Part shown: positions 42,796 to 49,104 of the stretch, in pieces
Layout of the letters: every line of letters begins with the position of its first letter
How positions within the stretch are numbered: position 1 is the first letter of the stretch
Source: Flavobacteriales bacterium
GTDB lineage: Bacteria > Bacteroidota > Bacteroidia > Flavobacteriales > Schleiferiaceae
Reading direction: 5' to 3'
DNA length: 57,662 bases
NCBI GenBank assembly: GCA_002737315.1
Contig: NSIH01000006.1
Location: 1-57,662, forward strand
Notes under the pieces: generated by a model
Told to the model about the DNA's origin: nothing
The model's database searches: none
The model's input: the letters and a program-made list of their open reading frames with translations, nothing else
Translations under genes and position numbers: made by a program

Positions 42796-43513
42796 TTAGG
42801 GCGGGTTCGTGCAGTGCGGCGGCGGCCAAAAGGTCGCCCCATGGTCCGATAATTCGGCTTGCGCCGCTGTGGTCTACTCCAAATCCGTCTATGCCAATAC
42901 GGTTGACTCCGGCGACGTAGCATTGGTTTTCCATAGCACGGGCGGCGAGCAGCGTAGTCCAAGCGGTCTCACGGGCTTCGGGCCAATTGGCCAAAACTAG
43001 CAAGCCGTCGTAGGCCGGACTCCCGTCGGAATCCAGCGTGTTGCGCAACCAAACCGGGAAGCGCAAGTCAAAGCAAACGGCCAGGCGCAAGCGCCATCCG
43101 CGCCAGGTAACCACCACAGCGTCTTCGCCGCGGCTAAAGTCTTGGTGCTCGCCTGCTACTGCAAAAAGGTGGCGCTTGTCTGCGGTGCTGGTGCGTCCGT
43201 CGGGCTCCACCCAAAAAAAGCGGTTGGCCACTTTGCCCGACTGGTGCGGAGCAAAGACCGAAGCCCCCACGGCGCAGTCAAGTTCCGCGGCAAGAGCAGC
43301 CAAAAACTCCACTGCCACAGCGCTCTTGGCTGCAACTTCTCGGGCGTTTTGCGTGGCAAATCCCGTAGCGTATGCCTCAGGCAAAAGCAGGACGTCCACC
43401 TCGCCGCGCTTGGGCAAAAGGGACCGAATTAGGGTAAAATTGGCTTGAGGGTCGCACCAGGCAATGCCGTACTGCAGCAGGGCGATTCTCAGGGGTTGGG
43501 CGCTACTTGGCAT
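42662..43513 (-). CDS. Nitrilase superfamily hydrolase (omega-amidase-like)
   Basis: 283 residues with the catalytic triad E46 (LLPEAYATGF), K113 (ADKRHLF) and C147 (LAVCFDLRFPVW). The last part AAVRKRFPFLADQDPF is the usual C-terminus of omega-amidases, which hydrolyse alpha-ketoglutaramate and similar omega-amides; about 18 residues follow. The start overlaps the SCO stop by 11 bases, so the two are coupled. Overlaps the convergent lipoprotein gene by 134 bases at the 3' end. Confidence 0.9.
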   Translation of the reverse strand: MPSSAQPLRIALLQYGIAWCDPQANFTLIRSLLPKRGEVDVLLLPEAYATGFATQNAREVAAKSAVAVEFLAALAAELDCAVGASVFAPHQSGKVANRFFWVEPDGRTSTADKRHLFAVAGEHQDFSRGEDAVVVTWRGWRLRLAVCFDLRFPVWLRNTLDSDGSPAYDGLLVLANWPEARETAWTTLLAARAMENQCYVAGVNRIGIDGFGVDHSGASRIIGPWGDLLAAAALHEPALITAVWDSIHLAAVRKRFPFLADQDPFAVLGMPPEATGALPSSQL

Positions 43514-44195
43514 CGGGCAAAAGTAGGGGAATGTCTTTGATCAGCTGGTCCACGGCCTTGGGGTCGGTGCCGTCGTAGTAGCCGCGCAGGCGGCCCTTGG
43601 CGTCAATCAAGACGAGGTTCTCGGTGTGAATGAAGGAGTGCTCGTCCCAGCCTTGACCCTCCTCAAGAACCGCAAAATAACTGGTGCGCGCAAGGCGATT
43701 CAGCTCGGCCGCATCGCCGGTCAGCAGCCACCATTGCTGGGGATCGCAGCCGTTTAGGGATGCGTAGTCCGCCAAAATTGGAACGCTGTCGTAGTCGGGC
43801 ATGGCCGTATGCGACAAAATTCTAAGCCTACCGTCTGCTGCAAAGGCGTCCTGAACGCGGCGCAAGGAGGCAGCCATGTCCATACAAATACTCGGACAGG
43901 TGGTGAAAAAGTAGCTCACTACGCGGACTTTTCCCTCGACGTCGGCAGCGCTGCGGCGCGTTCCGCTTTGGTCCAGGAGTTCAAAGTCCGCCACGACATG
44001 GTTCATGCCCACGGACTCCATGCTGTCGGCCACAATAGCGGGGTTTAGGTCGGAGGGATTGAGAATCGGGAGCTGCCGTTCTGGGCTCATTATTCGAAAC
44101 GCCACTGCCACGCCCACCGCAAAAATGCTTAGCAAAATAAGAATTTTGGCTAGCTCTGGCTTGGTAAGTCCTAGGTGCTTTTTTGGCTCAATCAT
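43503..44195 (-). CDS. SCO family copper chaperone/thiol-disulfide protein
   Basis: 230 residues: one N-terminal membrane anchor (about 17-35), then a periplasmic thioredoxin-fold domain. The copper site is complete: C100 and C104 in TTCPSICMDM and H190 in SFIHTENLVLID. SCO/SenC proteins insert CuA copper into cytochrome oxidase or reduce its cysteines. It is divergent from the MbnP operon with a 33-base gap, which points to shared copper regulation. A GAACTTTG element lies five bases upstream. Confidence 0.93.
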   Translation of the reverse strand: MIEPKKHLGLTKPELAKILILLSIFAVGVAVAFRIMSPERQLPILNPSDLNPAIVADSMESVGMNHVVADFELLDQSGTRRSAADVEGKVRVVSYFFTTCPSICMDMAASLRRVQDAFAADGRLRILSHTAMPDYDSVPILADYASLNGCDPQQWWLLTGDAAELNRLARTSYFAVLEEGQGWDEHSFIHTENLVLIDAKGRLRGYYDGTDPKAVDQLIKDIPLLLPDAK

Positions 44196-44200
44196 TGCTC

Positions 44201-44208
44201 CAAAGTTC
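44201..44208 (-). promoter_or_regulatory. Candidate -7 element (GAACTTTG) for the SCO gene
   Basis: One mismatch to TAnnTTTG on the minus strand, five bases before the SCO ATG at 44195. It overlaps the spacer of the MbnP promoter. Confidence 0.4.
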
Positions 44209-44217
44209 GTGAACCTT
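44202..44217. promoter_or_regulatory. Near-palindrome AAAGTTC-GT-GAACCTT in the SCO-MbnP gap
   Basis: Seven-base arms with one mismatch, placed between the two -7 elements of the divergent genes. Candidate operator; it resembles no copper-regulator box that I can name. Confidence 0.35.
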
Positions 44218-44228
44218 ATCTTTAAGCC

Positions 44229-44984
44229 ATGGTAAAAAATCTTTTAATTGCAGGAATCCTCCTTTTGGCAGCGGCCTGCTCTCCAGAAGGCAACGAGGTG
44301 ATGCTCGAAGTATCCGTTCAGCCAAAATGGAACGGCCAGGATTTGACCTACCAAAACCTTGGCTTGGTTCACCCCCAGACGGGCGACACTTTTCGCTTTG
44401 ACCGCAGCGACATGCTGCTCTCTGAAATTTCGCTAATTAAGGAAGATGGCAGCCTTCTGCCCCTAGTCACACAGGATGGAGAGCCCCTTTTTGCTTTTTT
44501 TACCAAGGGTAAACCCTGGACGATTGACGCACCAGACAACATTCCCAAGGGTCACTACCGGGGAATCAGCTTTAAGGTTGGCCTGGACTCTGCCATTAAT
44601 TTCGGAGATCCTTCAGTTTGGAAGGTGGGACATCCCCTCAACCCAACGGTGAACAGCCTTCACTGGGGCTGGCAAGGGGGCTATGTTTTCATGGCACTCG
44701 AAGGCTTTTACAAGGAATTGGGTGAGCAAAAGCCCTTTTTGTACCACATCGCCAAACTCGAAAACCGTATGCCGGTCGTAATTGAGGGAGACCTCCACCT
44801 GAGCGGATCCCGCAAGCTGATCCTAAACTGGAACGCCGACCGACTCTTTTATGGCGCGCACGAAATTCGCCCCGAAGAAGACGGTTCCTTCTCGCACAGC
44901 ACCTTTGACGGAGGCCTTGCCAATCGGATTTCTCAAAACGCAGGCCTTTCGTTTGAATGGGTTGCACTAGAAAACAAAAAATGA
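44229..44984 (+). CDS. MbnP family copper-binding lipoprotein
   Basis: 251 residues, lipobox LAAAC (C17). The family fits in length and pattern: LEVSVQPKWNG near the start, LLSEISLIKEDGS, KGHYRGISFKVGLD, NPTVNSLHWGWQGGYVFM (about 139-155), EGDLHLSGS. In MbnP and MopE/CorA proteins a tryptophan is oxidised to kynurenine and helps bind Cu(I). The candidate here is W146 or W148 in H145-W-G-W148; this is inference. It is followed directly by its likely modifying enzyme (ATGA overlap), and diverges from an SCO gene, which supports a periplasmic copper role. Confidence 0.87.
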   Translation: MVKNLLIAGILLLAAACSPEGNEVMLEVSVQPKWNGQDLTYQNLGLVHPQTGDTFRFDRSDMLLSEISLIKEDGSLLPLVTQDGEPLFAFFTKGKPWTIDAPDNIPKGHYRGISFKVGLDSAINFGDPSVWKVGHPLNPTVNSLHWGWQGGYVFMALEGFYKELGEQKPFLYHIAKLENRMPVVIEGDLHLSGSRKLILNWNADRLFYGAHEIRPEEDGSFSHSTFDGGLANRISQNAGLSFEWVALENKK

Positions 44985-46039
44985 GGTTTTTTGCAATCTT
45001 CGCCATAGCGGTTGCTGCAGCATCCTGCGCAGACGAGGTTCCAACCACGACTCCTTTTGCTCTGGTGGTTCCGCAGGGATTCTCTCCCCCGCCCTTGCCG
45101 GCAGACAATCCGCTCACTGTAGAGGGCGTGCTCTTGGGCCGCCGCCTTTTTTATGACCCCATTTTGTCGCGCGACTCCACCCAAAGCTGCGGCAGCTGCC
45201 ACAATACGGGCTTTTCAATGACCGACAACGGGCAGCGTTTCTCTGTCGGAATTAACAATGCCGTCGGCGATAGAAACAGCATGCCGCTGCACAATTTAGC
45301 CTACCATTCCGCCTTTTTTTGGGACGGACGCAGCCCCACATTGCGCGAGCTTACGTTGGTTCCGATTCAGGATTCGCGCGAAATGGACAATACCATTCAG
45401 GCGGTTTTGACCTCGCTCAATGCCAGCCCAACCTACCGCGATCTTTTTTGGAAGGCCTTTGGGGTTAAAACCATTAGCGCCGAAGAATTGGGCCTAGCTG
45501 CCGAGCAATTTATGCTGACCATCATGAGCGGGAACAGCAAATTTGACCGCCACCTGCGCGGAATGGAGAGCCTCAACGCCCAAGAACTCGAAGGGCTTCG
45601 CCTTTTTAATGGAGAAGCAAACCCCAACGCTCCCATGCGAGGAGCTGACTGCTTTCATTGCCACGGCGGGACCTTATTTACCAACAATAAGTTCAGGAAC
45701 AACGGTCTTGACTCCGTTACTACCGACCCCGGCCTGGGTGCTGTAACGGGTGACCAAAACGACCTGGGTAAATTTAAAACGCCATCCCTTCGCAACATTG
45801 CCTATACTGCGCCCTACATGCACGACGGTCGCTTTCAAACGCTTATGCAGGTGATCAATTTCTACAACAATGGAGCGCATGCAAACTCCCCCAACATTGA
45901 CCCGTCGATGGGCGACATTACACGGCCTGGCGGCTTGGGCTTAAGCCTCCAGGATCGCATGGCTTTGCTTGCCTTCTTGAACACTTTGAGCGACTCTTCC
46001 ATAGAAACCGATACCCTCTTTCAAAATCCCTTTAACTGA
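44981..46039 (+). CDS. MbnH-type diheme cytochrome c peroxidase family protein
   Basis: 352 residues from ATG 44981. Signal peptide with cysteine at 16 (AAASC), then two c-type heme sites: C70-C73-H74 (CGSCH) and C224-C227-H228 (CFHCH), and late SLRNIAYTAPYMHDGRF. This is the CCP/MauG superfamily. Next to an MbnP gene such proteins (MbnH) oxidise a Trp of MbnP to kynurenine; the pairing here supports that over a general peroxidase. The stop overlaps the next start as TGATG. Confidence 0.88.
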   Translation: MRFFAIFAIAVAAASCADEVPTTTPFALVVPQGFSPPPLPADNPLTVEGVLLGRRLFYDPILSRDSTQSCGSCHNTGFSMTDNGQRFSVGINNAVGDRNSMPLHNLAYHSAFFWDGRSPTLRELTLVPIQDSREMDNTIQAVLTSLNASPTYRDLFWKAFGVKTISAEELGLAAEQFMLTIMSGNSKFDRHLRGMESLNAQELEGLRLFNGEANPNAPMRGADCFHCHGGTLFTNNKFRNNGLDSVTTDPGLGAVTGDQNDLGKFKTPSLRNIAYTAPYMHDGRFQTLMQVINFYNNGAHANSPNIDPSMGDITRPGGLGLSLQDRMALLAFLNTLSDSSIETDTLFQNPFN

Positions 46040-46371
46040 TGAAAAAATTAGCCCTCCTAGCCCTTTTAATCGCCTCCAATTTTGCCTTTGCTCAGCAAAA
46101 AGAAACCACCTTTTGGGTTGACGGCGTGTGCGGGATGTGCGAGAAGCGAATTGAGTCCGCCTTGATTAACAGCCCCGGGGTAAAGTTTGCCGACTGGGAC
46201 AAAGAAACCCTCCAGGTAAAGGTGGCCTACAATTCCAAAAAAATCACCGAGCAAAAACTTCACGAAATCCTTGCCGGAGTGGGCCACGATACCCAAAAAG
46301 TTCGCGCTATTGACGGGGACTACGCCAAACTGCCCGGCTGCTGCAAGTACCGAACCCTTGACAAGCATTGA
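46039..46371 (+). CDS. Secreted heavy-metal-associated (HMA) domain protein
   Basis: 110 residues. Signal peptide 1-18 (MKKLALLALLIASNFAFA), then a ferredoxin-like HMA fold with VDGVCGMCEKRIE (C31, C34), the copper-chaperone CxxC site, and a second cysteine pair C101-C102 near the end (PGCCKYRT). Being exported, it should carry Cu(I) in the periplasm, passing it between receptor and MbnP or onward; direction is inferred. Overlaps both neighbours by one base. Confidence 0.88.
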   Translation: MKKLALLALLIASNFAFAQQKETTFWVDGVCGMCEKRIESALINSPGVKFADWDKETLQVKVAYNSKKITEQKLHEILAGVGHDTQKVRAIDGDYAKLPGCCKYRTLDKH

Positions 46372-48425
46372 TGGTTAGAGGCTTCTGGCTCCTGGCCCTT
46401 GGGCCCTGGGTGGCTCAGGCTCAAGTGCGCGACACCGTAACCCGAATCGGGCAAGTCGAGGTGCGTGCCTCCACCCCCGATGCCGTGGTTCAGGCGCGGT
46501 CCACCACACTTACCACTTCTATTGGACGCGGAGAACTCAAAAAAGCGGCATGCTGTAACCTGTCGGAGAGCTTTGAAACCAACCCCTCTATCGACGCGGC
46601 GTTTACCGATGCGATTACTGGGACCCGTCAAATTCAGCTGCTCGGGCTCGACGGTAAGTACGCTCAGATTCAAACCGAAATGACGCCCCTGGTGCGCGGA
46701 CTTTTGGCCAACAGCGGGCTTCAATTTGTGCCCGGAAGCTGGGTGGAGGGTATTCAGCTCACCAAGGGAATCGGTGCGGTGACCAATGGTTTTGAGAGCA
46801 TCACCGGTCAGGTCAATGTGGAATTGATCAAGCCCGACGAGGGAATTAGTCGTGAAAACCCAAGAAAAGCAAAGGCCAATGCCTACCTAGCCAACGCCGG
46901 AAGAATGGAGGTAAACGGAGAATTTGCCCAACGATTGAGCGACAAGTGGACGATTGGCAGCCTCCTGCACGCCAACCAAACCCGATGGTTCCGCGACATG
47001 AACAACGACGGCTTTGCCGATAATCCGCTGGGCGGCCAGCTCAACGGCATGATCAGGGCGCGATACTGGGGTCAAAATGGTTGGGAGGGGATTTTTACCC
47101 TGCACGGCCTGCAGGACCAGCGCGACGGAGGTCAACTCGGCGAGGACCGTCCTGCGCTCTCCTGGACCTCGTCAGTGGTTCAAAAGCGTAGTGCCTTTAC
47201 CTCCAAAACCGGTTGGGTCAATCCCGACGACCCCGAAATGAGCGTGGGCATTATTGTGCACGGCTACAAGCAGTCGCTGAACGCCGACCTTGGGCCAAGG
47301 GCGCTGCAAAGCAGCCTGTATTTAGAAGGAACCCAACGAGGGGGGCTGGTACAATTTCTGGCGCGCGATGGCGGCATGGGCTGGTACCAAACCTCGGGAT
47401 TGAGCTGGTCCCTAGACCGATACGTCATGGACTTGCATCACCCCGGAATGGCCCACGACGATGCCTGGACGGAGTCCGCGCCAGGAGCCTTTAGCGAATG
47501 GACCTTCGAGCCCTCAACCAAGGTGACCTTGGTGTTGGGAAGCCGACTGGACTGGCATTCTTTGGCGGGATTGCAGCTTAGCCCGCGCGCTCATTTGCGC
47601 TATGCTCCAAGCAGCAAATTGACCTTCAGGGGAGGACTTGGTCGCGGATTCCGCATGGCCATGCCCGCAGTGGAGTCCATTGGTCGCTTTGCAAGTGCCC
47701 GGTCTGTCAACCACGCAGTTACTCCTTGGGGGGATGCCCAGAATCTGGAGATGGGTTGGACCTACAGCGCCTCGGCCGTTTGGAATTATACCGCGAACTA
47801 CTACCCGGGCAGTGTCGTGGTCGACGTGCAGGCAAGCAACCTCAGCAAGGCCCTGCTGCTCGACTTCTACCAATCGGGCAATGAGGTTATGCTGTATTCT
47901 AGTGCCATGCAGTCCCGGAGTGCAAGCCTGCAATGGGAGCACCAATTTTCTAAGAATTGGAAGGGGCGAGTCGCCTACCGCCTTCAGGACGTGCGCGGAC
48001 GCTACCTCGGAATTTGGGACCACGTTCCCTATGTGGCTCCCCGACGAATTATGCTGCACGCAGAGTACCAGTTTCGCAAAAAGTGGTTTACCAACGCGAC
48101 CTGGCAGCACTACGCGGGCATGCCCTTGCCCCCGGGACCCGGCGGAGTTCTGCGCGAAACTAGTCCTGCTTTTGCCATGCTCCACGGGCAAATTCGCAGG
48201 GTAACCAAGTGGGGAGACGCCTATTTGGGAGTAGAAAATGCATTCAACGTGCGCCAAATGATGCCGGTGCTCGGCGTGGTAGACCACCTTGACAACCACC
48301 GCTTTATTGGGGCCGACGAATATGCTTTTCAAGCGTCATTTGATGCAACCCGCGTCTGGGGGCCCATTTTTGGCCGCATGTTCTACCTTGGCATCAACCT
48401 TGCTTTGATTGGCAGTGATGAATGA
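46371..48425 (+). CDS. TonB-dependent receptor with N-terminal Cys-Cys motif (probable copper receptor)
   Basis: 684 residues from ATG 46371 (a TTG codon just before it is in frame). Signal peptide 1-18, no carboxypeptidase-like domain; plug begins at about 25 and carries ELKKAACCNLSESFETNPS (C61, C62), then TGTRQIQLLGLDGKYAQIQ; barrel to the C-terminus. The Cys pair at the start of the plug is a feature of a Bacteroidota receptor group found with copper genes. Its place in the MbnP operon points to copper or a copper complex as substrate. Eight-base overlap with the ABC ATPase gene. Confidence 0.88.
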   Translation: MVRGFWLLALGPWVAQAQVRDTVTRIGQVEVRASTPDAVVQARSTTLTTSIGRGELKKAACCNLSESFETNPSIDAAFTDAITGTRQIQLLGLDGKYAQIQTEMTPLVRGLLANSGLQFVPGSWVEGIQLTKGIGAVTNGFESITGQVNVELIKPDEGISRENPRKAKANAYLANAGRMEVNGEFAQRLSDKWTIGSLLHANQTRWFRDMNNDGFADNPLGGQLNGMIRARYWGQNGWEGIFTLHGLQDQRDGGQLGEDRPALSWTSSVVQKRSAFTSKTGWVNPDDPEMSVGIIVHGYKQSLNADLGPRALQSSLYLEGTQRGGLVQFLARDGGMGWYQTSGLSWSLDRYVMDLHHPGMAHDDAWTESAPGAFSEWTFEPSTKVTLVLGSRLDWHSLAGLQLSPRAHLRYAPSSKLTFRGGLGRGFRMAMPAVESIGRFASARSVNHAVTPWGDAQNLEMGWTYSASAVWNYTANYYPGSVVVDVQASNLSKALLLDFYQSGNEVMLYSSAMQSRSASLQWEHQFSKNWKGRVAYRLQDVRGRYLGIWDHVPYVAPRRIMLHAEYQFRKKWFTNATWQHYAGMPLPPGPGGVLRETSPAFAMLHGQIRRVTKWGDAYLGVENAFNVRQMMPVLGVVDHLDNHRFIGADEYAFQASFDATRVWGPIFGRMFYLGINLALIGSDE

Positions 48426-49104
48426 GTCGGTAATACACCTCCGCGATATTACGCGCGATTTTAAGTTGGGAGGACAGACGGTCCACGTACTCAAGGGCAT
48501 CGACCTCGACATAAAACGCGGCGAATATGTGGCGCTCATGGGGCCTTCGGGGTCGGGCAAGTCTACGCTTATGAATTTGCTCGGCTGCCTCGATACGCCC
48601 ACCTCAGGCACCTATGTGCTGGCAGACCGTGACGTGAGCCGCATGGCCGAGCAAGAGCTCGCCGAGGTACGAAACCAAGAAATAGGATTTGTCTTTCAAA
48701 CGTTTAATCTGATTCCGCGCCAGACCGCACTCGATAACGTCGCTCTGCCCCTGGTTTATGCGGGCATCGGCAAAGAAGAACGGCTAGAACGGGCGGCCGA
48801 GGTGCTGCGCTCTGTGGGCTTAGGCGACCGGATGCACCATCAACCCAACCAACTCTCGGGCGGACAACGCCAACGCGTGGCAATCGCCAGGGCCTTGGTA
48901 AACAAGCCCTCGCTCATTCTGGCCGACGAGCCCACCGGAAACCTGGACTCCACAACTTCTGACGAAATTTTGAAGCTGTTTGACGAGATCCACGCGGCCG
49001 GAAACACGCTGGTAGTAGTTACCCACGAAGAAGAAGTTGCCCGGCATGCCAAGAGGGTGATTCGCCTGCGCGACGGAATTATTGCCGACGCAGGCAGCCA
49101 TTAA
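48418..49104 (+). CDS. ABC transporter ATP-binding protein (LolD/MacB type)
   Basis: 228 residues from ATG 48418. Walker A GPSGSGKST (42-50), Q-loop VFQTFNL, signature LSGGQRQRVAIARAL, Walker B LILADEPTGNLDS, H-loop VVTHEEEV. Sequence places it with LolD, MacB and FtsE ATPases. No permease gene lies next to it, so the partner must be encoded elsewhere. The coupling to the receptor gene by overlap puts it in the same transcript; whether it serves metal transport or lipoprotein sorting is open. Confidence 0.92.
   Translation: MNESVIHLRDITRDFKLGGQTVHVLKGIDLDIKRGEYVALMGPSGSGKSTLMNLLGCLDTPTSGTYVLADRDVSRMAEQELAEVRNQEIGFVFQTFNLIPRQTALDNVALPLVYAGIGKEERLERAAEVLRSVGLGDRMHHQPNQLSGGQRQRVAIARALVNKPSLILADEPTGNLDSTTSDEILKLFDEIHAAGNTLVVVTHEEEVARHAKRVIRLRDGIIADAGSH

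Follow-up and report, generated by a model that had tools for sequence, protein, structure and literature searches.

Gene pairs for MbnP and the diheme enzyme MbnH (MbnPH below) are kept far beyond the producers of methanobactin, as Kenney and Rosenzweig described in 2013, and isolated pairs in Methylosinus adjoin MbnT-like receptors; in the available text of that paper the role of such pairs outside methanobactin operons is left open (PMC3621798). In two comparable systems, MopE/SACCP and CorA/CorB, a copper protein with a kynurenine and two histidines is likewise encoded next to a diheme enzyme; the copper site of CorA consists of Kyn62, H64 and H114, both MopE and its diheme partner SACCP are placed on the cell surface, and the available text describes no receptor alongside either system (PMC3912023). 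The genes of copper operons headed by DUF2946 (CruR), mostly from Proteobacteria, include TonB receptors, Sco, PCuAC and MbnPH-like genes (PMC9426467), and in Bordetella pertussis the TonB receptor CrtA is described as importing copper for heme-copper oxidases (PMC12914433). Here we consider a stretch of 57,662 nucleotides from a member of the Flavobacteriales (family Schleiferiaceae; contig NSIH01000006.1), referred to as the window, which carries genes for MbnP, MbnH, an exported HMA protein and a TonB-dependent receptor in a row. This cluster is a real, conserved and divergent MbnPH-receptor operon, the Bacteroidota form of which is new, and on balance we favor, with some reserve, the view that it constitutes a copper-acquisition pathway without a self-made chalkophore.

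The four genes are followed on the same strand by one for an ABC ATPase, with overlaps of 4 (MbnP/MbnH), 1 (MbnH/HMA), 1 (HMA/receptor) and 8 (receptor/ABC ATPase) bases, and a gene for an SCO copper chaperone diverges from them (Table 1). A first-pass annotation of the window had described this layout, and its genes, order, strands and overlaps were borne out by gene calls and Pfam; the two CxxCH sites of MbnH, the CGMC motif of the HMA protein, the Cys-Cys motif in the receptor plug and the divergent SCO gene were all found as well. The survey of gene neighborhoods that this annotation had called for was carried out in the window's own genus (g1), a neighboring genus (g125) and a second family (f55), and a neighbor was counted only at loci with room for it, that is, where the contig reaches far enough to show it. 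Eighty MbnP regions were taken: the own-genus matches listed (without G236 and G242), listed matches from one to three genomes in most of the other genera, and a portion of g138. There are 21 window-type MbnP loci in g1 and g125, the window included. At these, MbnH follows MbnP in 19/19 loci with room, the HMA protein comes next in 18/18 and the receptor after it in 18/18, and the whole MbnP-MbnH-HMA-receptor array is present in all 18 of the 21 whose contigs suffice. SCO diverges from MbnP in 19/19 loci with room upstream. Two more g1 loci (L075, L078) hold another MbnP subtype without the receptor module. Outside these counts stand four own-genus receptor contigs (L254, L255, L256 and L259) whose sequence stops at the HMA gene or the receptor or shortly after it; L254 retains a piece of MbnH.

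The f55 set comprises 20 loci from 19 genomes of genera g61, g140 and g142, picked as the best new matches among those listed (a second match in G300 fell inside a region already taken, and G063 had been retrieved earlier). There the order is receptor, MbnP, MbnH and HMA protein, with an open reading frame (ORF) containing CxxC behind the receptor in 14 of the 20, and the counts with room are 20/20 for MbnH, 18/18 for the HMA protein and 18/18 for the receptor. Since the arrangements in g1/g125 and f55 differ, the same four parts have been united in two gene orders. A locus in genus g78 (L319) that reads HYC-MbnP-MbnH-HMA, with no receptor recognised, is outside the f55 count. In a further set of 80 MbnP loci, the nearest named relatives are records of metagenome-assembled genomes whose titles read Cryomorphaceae, Schleiferiaceae, Flavobacteriales, Bacteroidetes or Owenweeksia; the MbnP of the first is 96% identical. 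Relatives with MbnP identities of 35 to 96% retain the arrangement, which therefore goes beyond chance.

The identification of the first two genes, also proposed in the first-pass annotation, holds up on fold and on residues. MbnP scores 84.4 bits against PF20243 (cut-off 27) and 37.9 bits against the NCBIfam equivalog TIGR04052 (WxW; cut-off 140), so that it is a Pfam member outside the equivalog. MbnH scores 170.2 bits against CCP_MauG and, against its best NCBIfam model, TIGR04039, 220.8 bits with a cut-off of 362.85. As both fall below the NCBIfam cut-offs, they are divergent members. A sequence search of the PDB with the window MbnP alone matched no chain and a 17-row profile gave nothing significant (7l6g at E 0.62); with a 47-row profile, drawn from 102 listed MbnP candidates, 7l6g was matched at E 3.4e-5. 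The AlphaFold model of MbnP has a mean pLDDT (predicted local distance difference test) of 93.3, and the only Foldseek matches at E <= 0.001 were the six chains of 7l6g, MbnP of M. trichosporium (best E 1.2e-9, probability 1.00, template-modelling score 0.53-0.59 by query, root-mean-square deviation 5.2-6.4, with 14-16% identity in the structural alignment). G118, W146, Y152 and H173 are invariant in all 47 aligned related sequences and W148 is nearly so. The LHWGW motif served as a search pattern, and its presence in the further set of 80 MbnP loci is therefore circular. MbnP as such is common, being found in 141 of the 198 genomes of the class that were sampled and in 84/88 genomes of the window's family.

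In MbnH the heme sites begin at residues 70 and 224, and the best PDB match is a di-heme enzyme, 6e1c, which we take to be MbnH of M. trichosporium. An inter-heme Trp (W93) and an axial Tyr (Y294) matter for the chemistry of MauG. Their equivalents by alignment, W114 and Y295, are invariant in 15/15 rows, as is a lipobox cysteine (C16) that makes MbnH a lipoprotein, a feature absent from the earlier annotation; one truncated MbnH (L064) was omitted. The window pair thus resembles that of M. trichosporium (7l6g; 6e1c) in being a two-gene pair with an MbnP fold, a MauG-type diheme enzyme, a WxW motif and a conserved His. It differs in that both proteins are lipid-anchored, that LHWGW supplies an extra His, that MbnP has no cysteine besides that of the lipobox and hence no four-Cys motif of the kind in the name of 7l6g, that HMA and SCO partners are present, and that no MbnB was found in the genus. 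With MopE/SACCP and CorA/CorB the likeness lies in a copper protein next to a diheme enzyme, but CorA has Kyn-x-His where the window MbnP has WxW (PMC3912023, available text), and no MopE or CorA structure is among the best 50 Foldseek matches listed for the MbnP model. The DUF2946 operons share with the window, as a class, TonB receptors, Sco and MbnPH-like genes; the available text on them names no HMA protein and leaves unsaid whether receptor, Sco and MbnPH occur in one operon (PMC9426467).

The HMA protein scores 34.6 bits against Pfam HMA. In addition to CGMC it carries near its C terminus a second Cys pair, CC[KR]YR, present in 13/13 aligned rows and missing from the first reading of the sequence. 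The Cys pair of the receptor occupies residues 61-62, and both cysteines are invariant in two alignments, of 11 rows (without four truncated receptors, L066, L067, L071 and L074) and of 14 rows. CrtA, in contrast, is described without conserved Cys, has a PepSY_TM partner and occurs mostly in beta- and gamma-Proteobacteria (PMC12914433, available text). Trees were made from rows picked by lineage among the matches. In the receptor tree (67 rows) the two linked lineages lie apart on starred branches, g1 and g125 sitting with further genera of their family, and in the MbnH tree (60 rows) one unresolved group (support 91) holds them together with six Bacteroidota rows of a different setting. The approximately unbiased test did not reject a single clade uniting the receptors of the two linked lineages (p 0.136), and therefore two independent joinings of MbnPH to the receptor are not proved.

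The receptor is itself widespread, occurring in 142 of the 198 class genomes sampled, mostly as a single match, and in 83/88 genomes of the family. At the 29 best-scoring class loci besides the window (L223-L251, 1.5 kb flanks) the HMA protein adjoins the receptor in 28, and 21 times the HMA gene is immediately preceded by one for a small HYC/HFC protein. Of 17 more class loci with longer flanks, picked down the match list (L284 is from the same genome as L237), the HMA protein adjoins the receptor in 10. In other genera of the family it does so in 13/13, and 11 of these read HYC_CC_PP-HMA-receptor; at L262 a Cys-rich small protein occupies the place of HYC_CC_PP. One HYC-like small protein scored 48.2 bits against the HYC_CC_PP model NF047658 (cut-off 28), and three HYC_CC_PP-like proteins scanned had no Pfam match at E 0.01. 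This module thus shares with the window a related receptor and HMA protein and differs in lacking MbnPH and in having HYC_CC_PP in first place. Judged by these gene arrangements, the receptor-HMA pair looks like an older unit that occurs widely in Bacteroidia, in most cases without MbnPH and frequently preceded by HYC_CC_PP. MbnPH in turn seems to have been added to a pair already present, at the place that HYC_CC_PP holds elsewhere in the family, because the receptor-HMA pair is widespread, because MbnPH stands beside the receptor in 0/30 of the longer-flank receptor loci (13 from the family, 17 from elsewhere, with L274 and L275 kept apart), and because the NF047658 model finds HYC_CC_PP in 0/22 genomes of the genus.

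We infer copper as the metal from the SCO partner, the HMA domain and the kin of MbnP. The SCO protein has CPSIC, which satisfies CxxxC, and scores 76.9 bits with a cut-off of 22.8; the oxidase that it could serve, as the annotation had supposed, is indicated by COX1, a heme-copper oxidase gene, in 22/22 genus genomes. At L261 (genus g135), one of the 13 loci from other genera of the family, SCO diverges directly from HMA-receptor without MbnPH. MbnB (PF05114), which the annotation had not seen in the window either, was found in 0/22 genus genomes, the window's own (84% complete) included, and the same search was positive in 2/14 control genomes, while no search was aimed at the short MbnA precursor peptide; 11 of the 22 genomes reach 90% completeness or more with contamination of no more than 5%. 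Based on these data, a pathway may be proposed in which no methanobactin would be made in this lineage and the TonB receptor would bring copper, free or weakly chelated, to the periplasm. The Cys pairs (CC of the plug, CxxC and C-terminal CC of the HMA protein) would relay Cu(I), and SCO would load the CuA site of cytochrome c oxidase. In this lineage the receptor-HMA pair would have been extended with MbnP-MbnH: the lipid-anchored MbnH would turn W146 (or W148) of MbnP into kynurenine by oxidation, which together with H173, and possibly also H145 or H135, would form a high-affinity copper site, and MbnP would capture copper, most likely next to the receptor at the outer membrane.

The first-pass annotation had MbnP holding copper after its import. 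Judging from sequence features, MbnP may act before the receptor rather than on imported copper, because MbnH is also a lipoprotein and both proteins carry a possible pattern for surface export. In Bacteroidota, acidic residues near the lipobox Cys can serve as a signal for export to the surface. Asp or Glu occurs within three residues of this Cys in 17/17 MbnP rows and 12/14 MbnH rows (in the two remaining MbnH rows an earlier Cys was taken by the script) compared with 13/38 other lipoprotein-like ORFs; as the rows are related, the pattern is a hint only. Since MopE and SACCP share the cell surface, capture outside the cell is a fair model. A bolder version, which we offer tentatively and think rather unlikely as a whole, would place MbnP and MbnH as surface lipoproteins on the CC-plug receptor, in the way that SusD-like or BtuG proteins sit on their receptors, where an extracellular diheme enzyme would make the kynurenine copper site and MbnP would hand copper to the receptor, replacing a secreted chalkophore; across the wider Bacteroidia, HYC_CC_PP would be a copper-sensing leader peptide like CruR, governing the receptor operon.

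Several observations weigh against the acquisition pathway or against parts of it. MbnPH does not stand beside the receptor in any of the 30 longer receptor loci mentioned above, and the HMA protein was not recognised in 7 of the 17 that come from the class at large. Conversely, in 61 further family loci with MbnP no HMA-CC receptor module was seen in the stretch read, with two flagged exceptions (a receptor fragment of 28 bits and an ORF resembling a copper P-type ATPase); 42 of the 61 have MbnH within 5 kb, and one is the second MbnP of G204 (g125). MbnPH therefore works in other settings too. Among the matches listed, the window's own genome and G063 are the only ones in which MbnP and the receptor are no more than a few kb apart. 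At L275 (G156) MbnH adjoins HMA-receptor although MbnP was not recognised. Paralogues of MbnP (29/35) and MbnH (20/33) often have the acidic residue as well, and an attempt to place the Cys pair of the receptor in space was given up, residues 1-96 of the model being below pLDDT 50.

One alternative is periplasmic storage or detoxification, in which MbnP and the HMA protein would buffer excess copper from other routes and the receptor would import something else or sense. HMA proteins are common in resistance, and at L110 MbnPH adjoins an ORF (746 amino acids, with an HMA match) resembling a copper P-type ATPase. However, TonB receptors import, the window receptor is joined to MbnPH in two lineages, the Pfam scan detected no efflux ATPase or RND pump among the six proteins, and SCO is an assembly factor, so that we regard storage as unlikely, if deserving of attention. 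Slightly more doubtful still is uptake of a xenometallophore, with the receptor importing copper on a small molecule from other organisms and MbnP/MbnH stripping or holding it. CrtA imports chelated copper without an identified chalkophore of its own (PMC12914433, available text), and the Methylosinus pairs near MbnT-like receptors (PMC3621798) would fit as well, but the CC motif of the window receptor is not a feature of CrtA as described.

The linkage of 18/18 in g1/g125 and 18/18 in f55, in two orders, speaks for copper acquisition, as do the MauG W93/Y294 equivalents, invariant in 15/15 rows, and a fold match significant to MbnP only. It is further favored by the HMA protein beside the receptor in 28/29 class and 13/13 family loci, by SCO-HMA-receptor in g135, by COX1 in 22/22 and MbnB in 0/22 genomes, and by the acidic residue near the lipobox in 17/17 MbnP rows. 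A further alternative is another metal or a redox function, in which the HMA protein and the Cys pairs would carry zinc or mercury or exchange disulfides and MbnH would be an ordinary cytochrome c peroxidase. The HMA protein also scores against MerP (27.6 bits, cut-off 92.55), and MbnH is below its curated cut-off; the MauG-type Tyr and Trp of MbnH, the fold of MbnP and the SCO partner in 19/19 loci with room make this highly improbable. That the genes merely happen to be neighbors in a streamlined, tightly packed genome is scarcely credible: with 1.36 Mb at 84% completeness the draft genome is small, and two genes downstream also keep their place in several relatives, but the same four parts recur in another order in f55, which already weakens the argument from chance.

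The copper interpretation of the first-pass annotation is thus partly supported, by linkage, residues, fold, the negative result for MbnB and the presence of COX1; it falls short in counting the ABC ATPase with the cluster (below) and in the extent of its novelty. Novelty is limited, as MbnPH near TonB receptors was published in 2013 (PMC3621798), and receptors, Sco and MbnPH-like genes were named as members of copper operons in 2022 (PMC9426467, both in the available text). A search limited to literature available without subscription found no paper on MbnPH with an HMA-CC receptor in Bacteroidota, which is weak evidence of novelty. What is gained is a link, present in two lineages and in two gene orders, between MbnPH and a widespread receptor-HMA pair, together with a candidate client pathway for MbnPH, copper for respiration.

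Table 1. The cluster and its immediate neighbors, with positions in the window.
Feature	Positions	Strand	Evidence
SCO1/SenC copper chaperone, N-terminal membrane anchor, CPSIC motif	43503-44195	-	Pfam SCO1-SenC 76.9 bits
SCO-MbnP divergent intergenic gap, 33 bases	44196-44228	none	between oppositely transcribed genes
MbnP-family lipoprotein, LHWGW subtype	44229-44984	+	Pfam MbnP 84.4 bits; alignments; AlphaFold model and Foldseek
MbnH/MauG-like diheme enzyme, also lipoprotein	44981-46039	+	CCP_MauG 170.2 bits; best PDB match 6e1c
Exported HMA protein, CGMC and C-terminal CCKYR	46039-46371	+	Pfam HMA 34.6 bits; alignment
TonB-dependent receptor, CCNLSESFETN opening the plug	46371-48425	+	TonB barrel Pfam 39.7 bits
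LolD/MacB-like ABC ATPase	48418-49104	+	Pfam ABC_tran 125.6 bits

For the receptor the ATG at 46371 was taken as the start (an alternative TTG lies 3 bases upstream), and for the ABC ATPase the ATG at 48418 (alternative TTG at 48409). The window's genome holds a single MbnP match. The gap between SCO and MbnP measures 32 to 82 bases across the 14 loci compared; a conserved palindromic operator in this gap was considered and rejected, an inverted-repeat scan having given one weak match (L063) and none in the other 13 loci. The ABC ATPase, which the annotation had listed among the five genes of the cluster, lies behind the receptor in 10/10 g1 relatives with room, scores 243.6 bits against the LolD model (cut-off 307.75) and 269.6 against MacB (cut-off 966), and in g125 (L260) a different ABC protein comes first after the receptor. 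Because of its LolD/MacB likeness and of the other ABC protein in g125, it hardly belongs to the copper system and that role was rejected; it is probably a co-directional housekeeping passenger. Behind it lies an ORF of about 465 amino acids, a putative aldehyde dehydrogenase, and both are the genes that keep their position in several relatives.

Some further observations concern the small HYC proteins. A PP within the last 45 residues occurs in 43/48 module-adjacent HYC_CC_PP-like proteins (e.g. L223:4265-4648, L228:357-776, L267, L270), compared with 488/2645 control ORFs and 1/111 HMA proteins, a comparison that is partly circular since PP names the family. This ending resembles the C-terminal RAPP of CruR, which is described as arresting ribosomes until copper is sensed (PMC9426467). 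At L275:29-4883 (G156) a HYC_CC_PP-like protein, a Por-secretion-tail protein, MbnH, HMA protein and receptor stand in a row. Immediately upstream of the receptor operon, both L314 and L318 have a second MbnP-MbnH-MbnH set, accompanied by a HYC-like protein of its own, and a HYC-like protein is also found near the MbnP-MbnH pair and ATPase-like ORF of L110:4949-11477 (G227). At L274:7721-8467 (f55) the ORF that separates receptor and MbnP joins an HMA domain to MauE (PF07291), a candidate for an inner-membrane step.

MbnP-MbnH pairs also occur in other surroundings. In L188, L190, L195, L207 and L209 an LHWGW-type pair lies behind an ORF of about 640-650 amino acids (cut by the contig end in L209), which reads as a putative M1-type peptidase, and no HMA protein or receptor was recognised nearby. 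In the further set of 80 MbnP loci, the MbnP and MbnH matches fall in one single ORF in 47 (L160:9953-20394 and 46 others), mostly from records titled as Verrucomicrobiota groups and one from Sphaerotilus. A downstream ORF of more than 400 amino acids with CxxCH accompanies 16 of these 47, and 14 of the 16 measure 1566 to 2979 amino acids. The one scanned (L160, 2892 amino acids) has galactose-oxidase-like, Kelch and CCP_MauG domains, which suggests a copper oxidase as the client.

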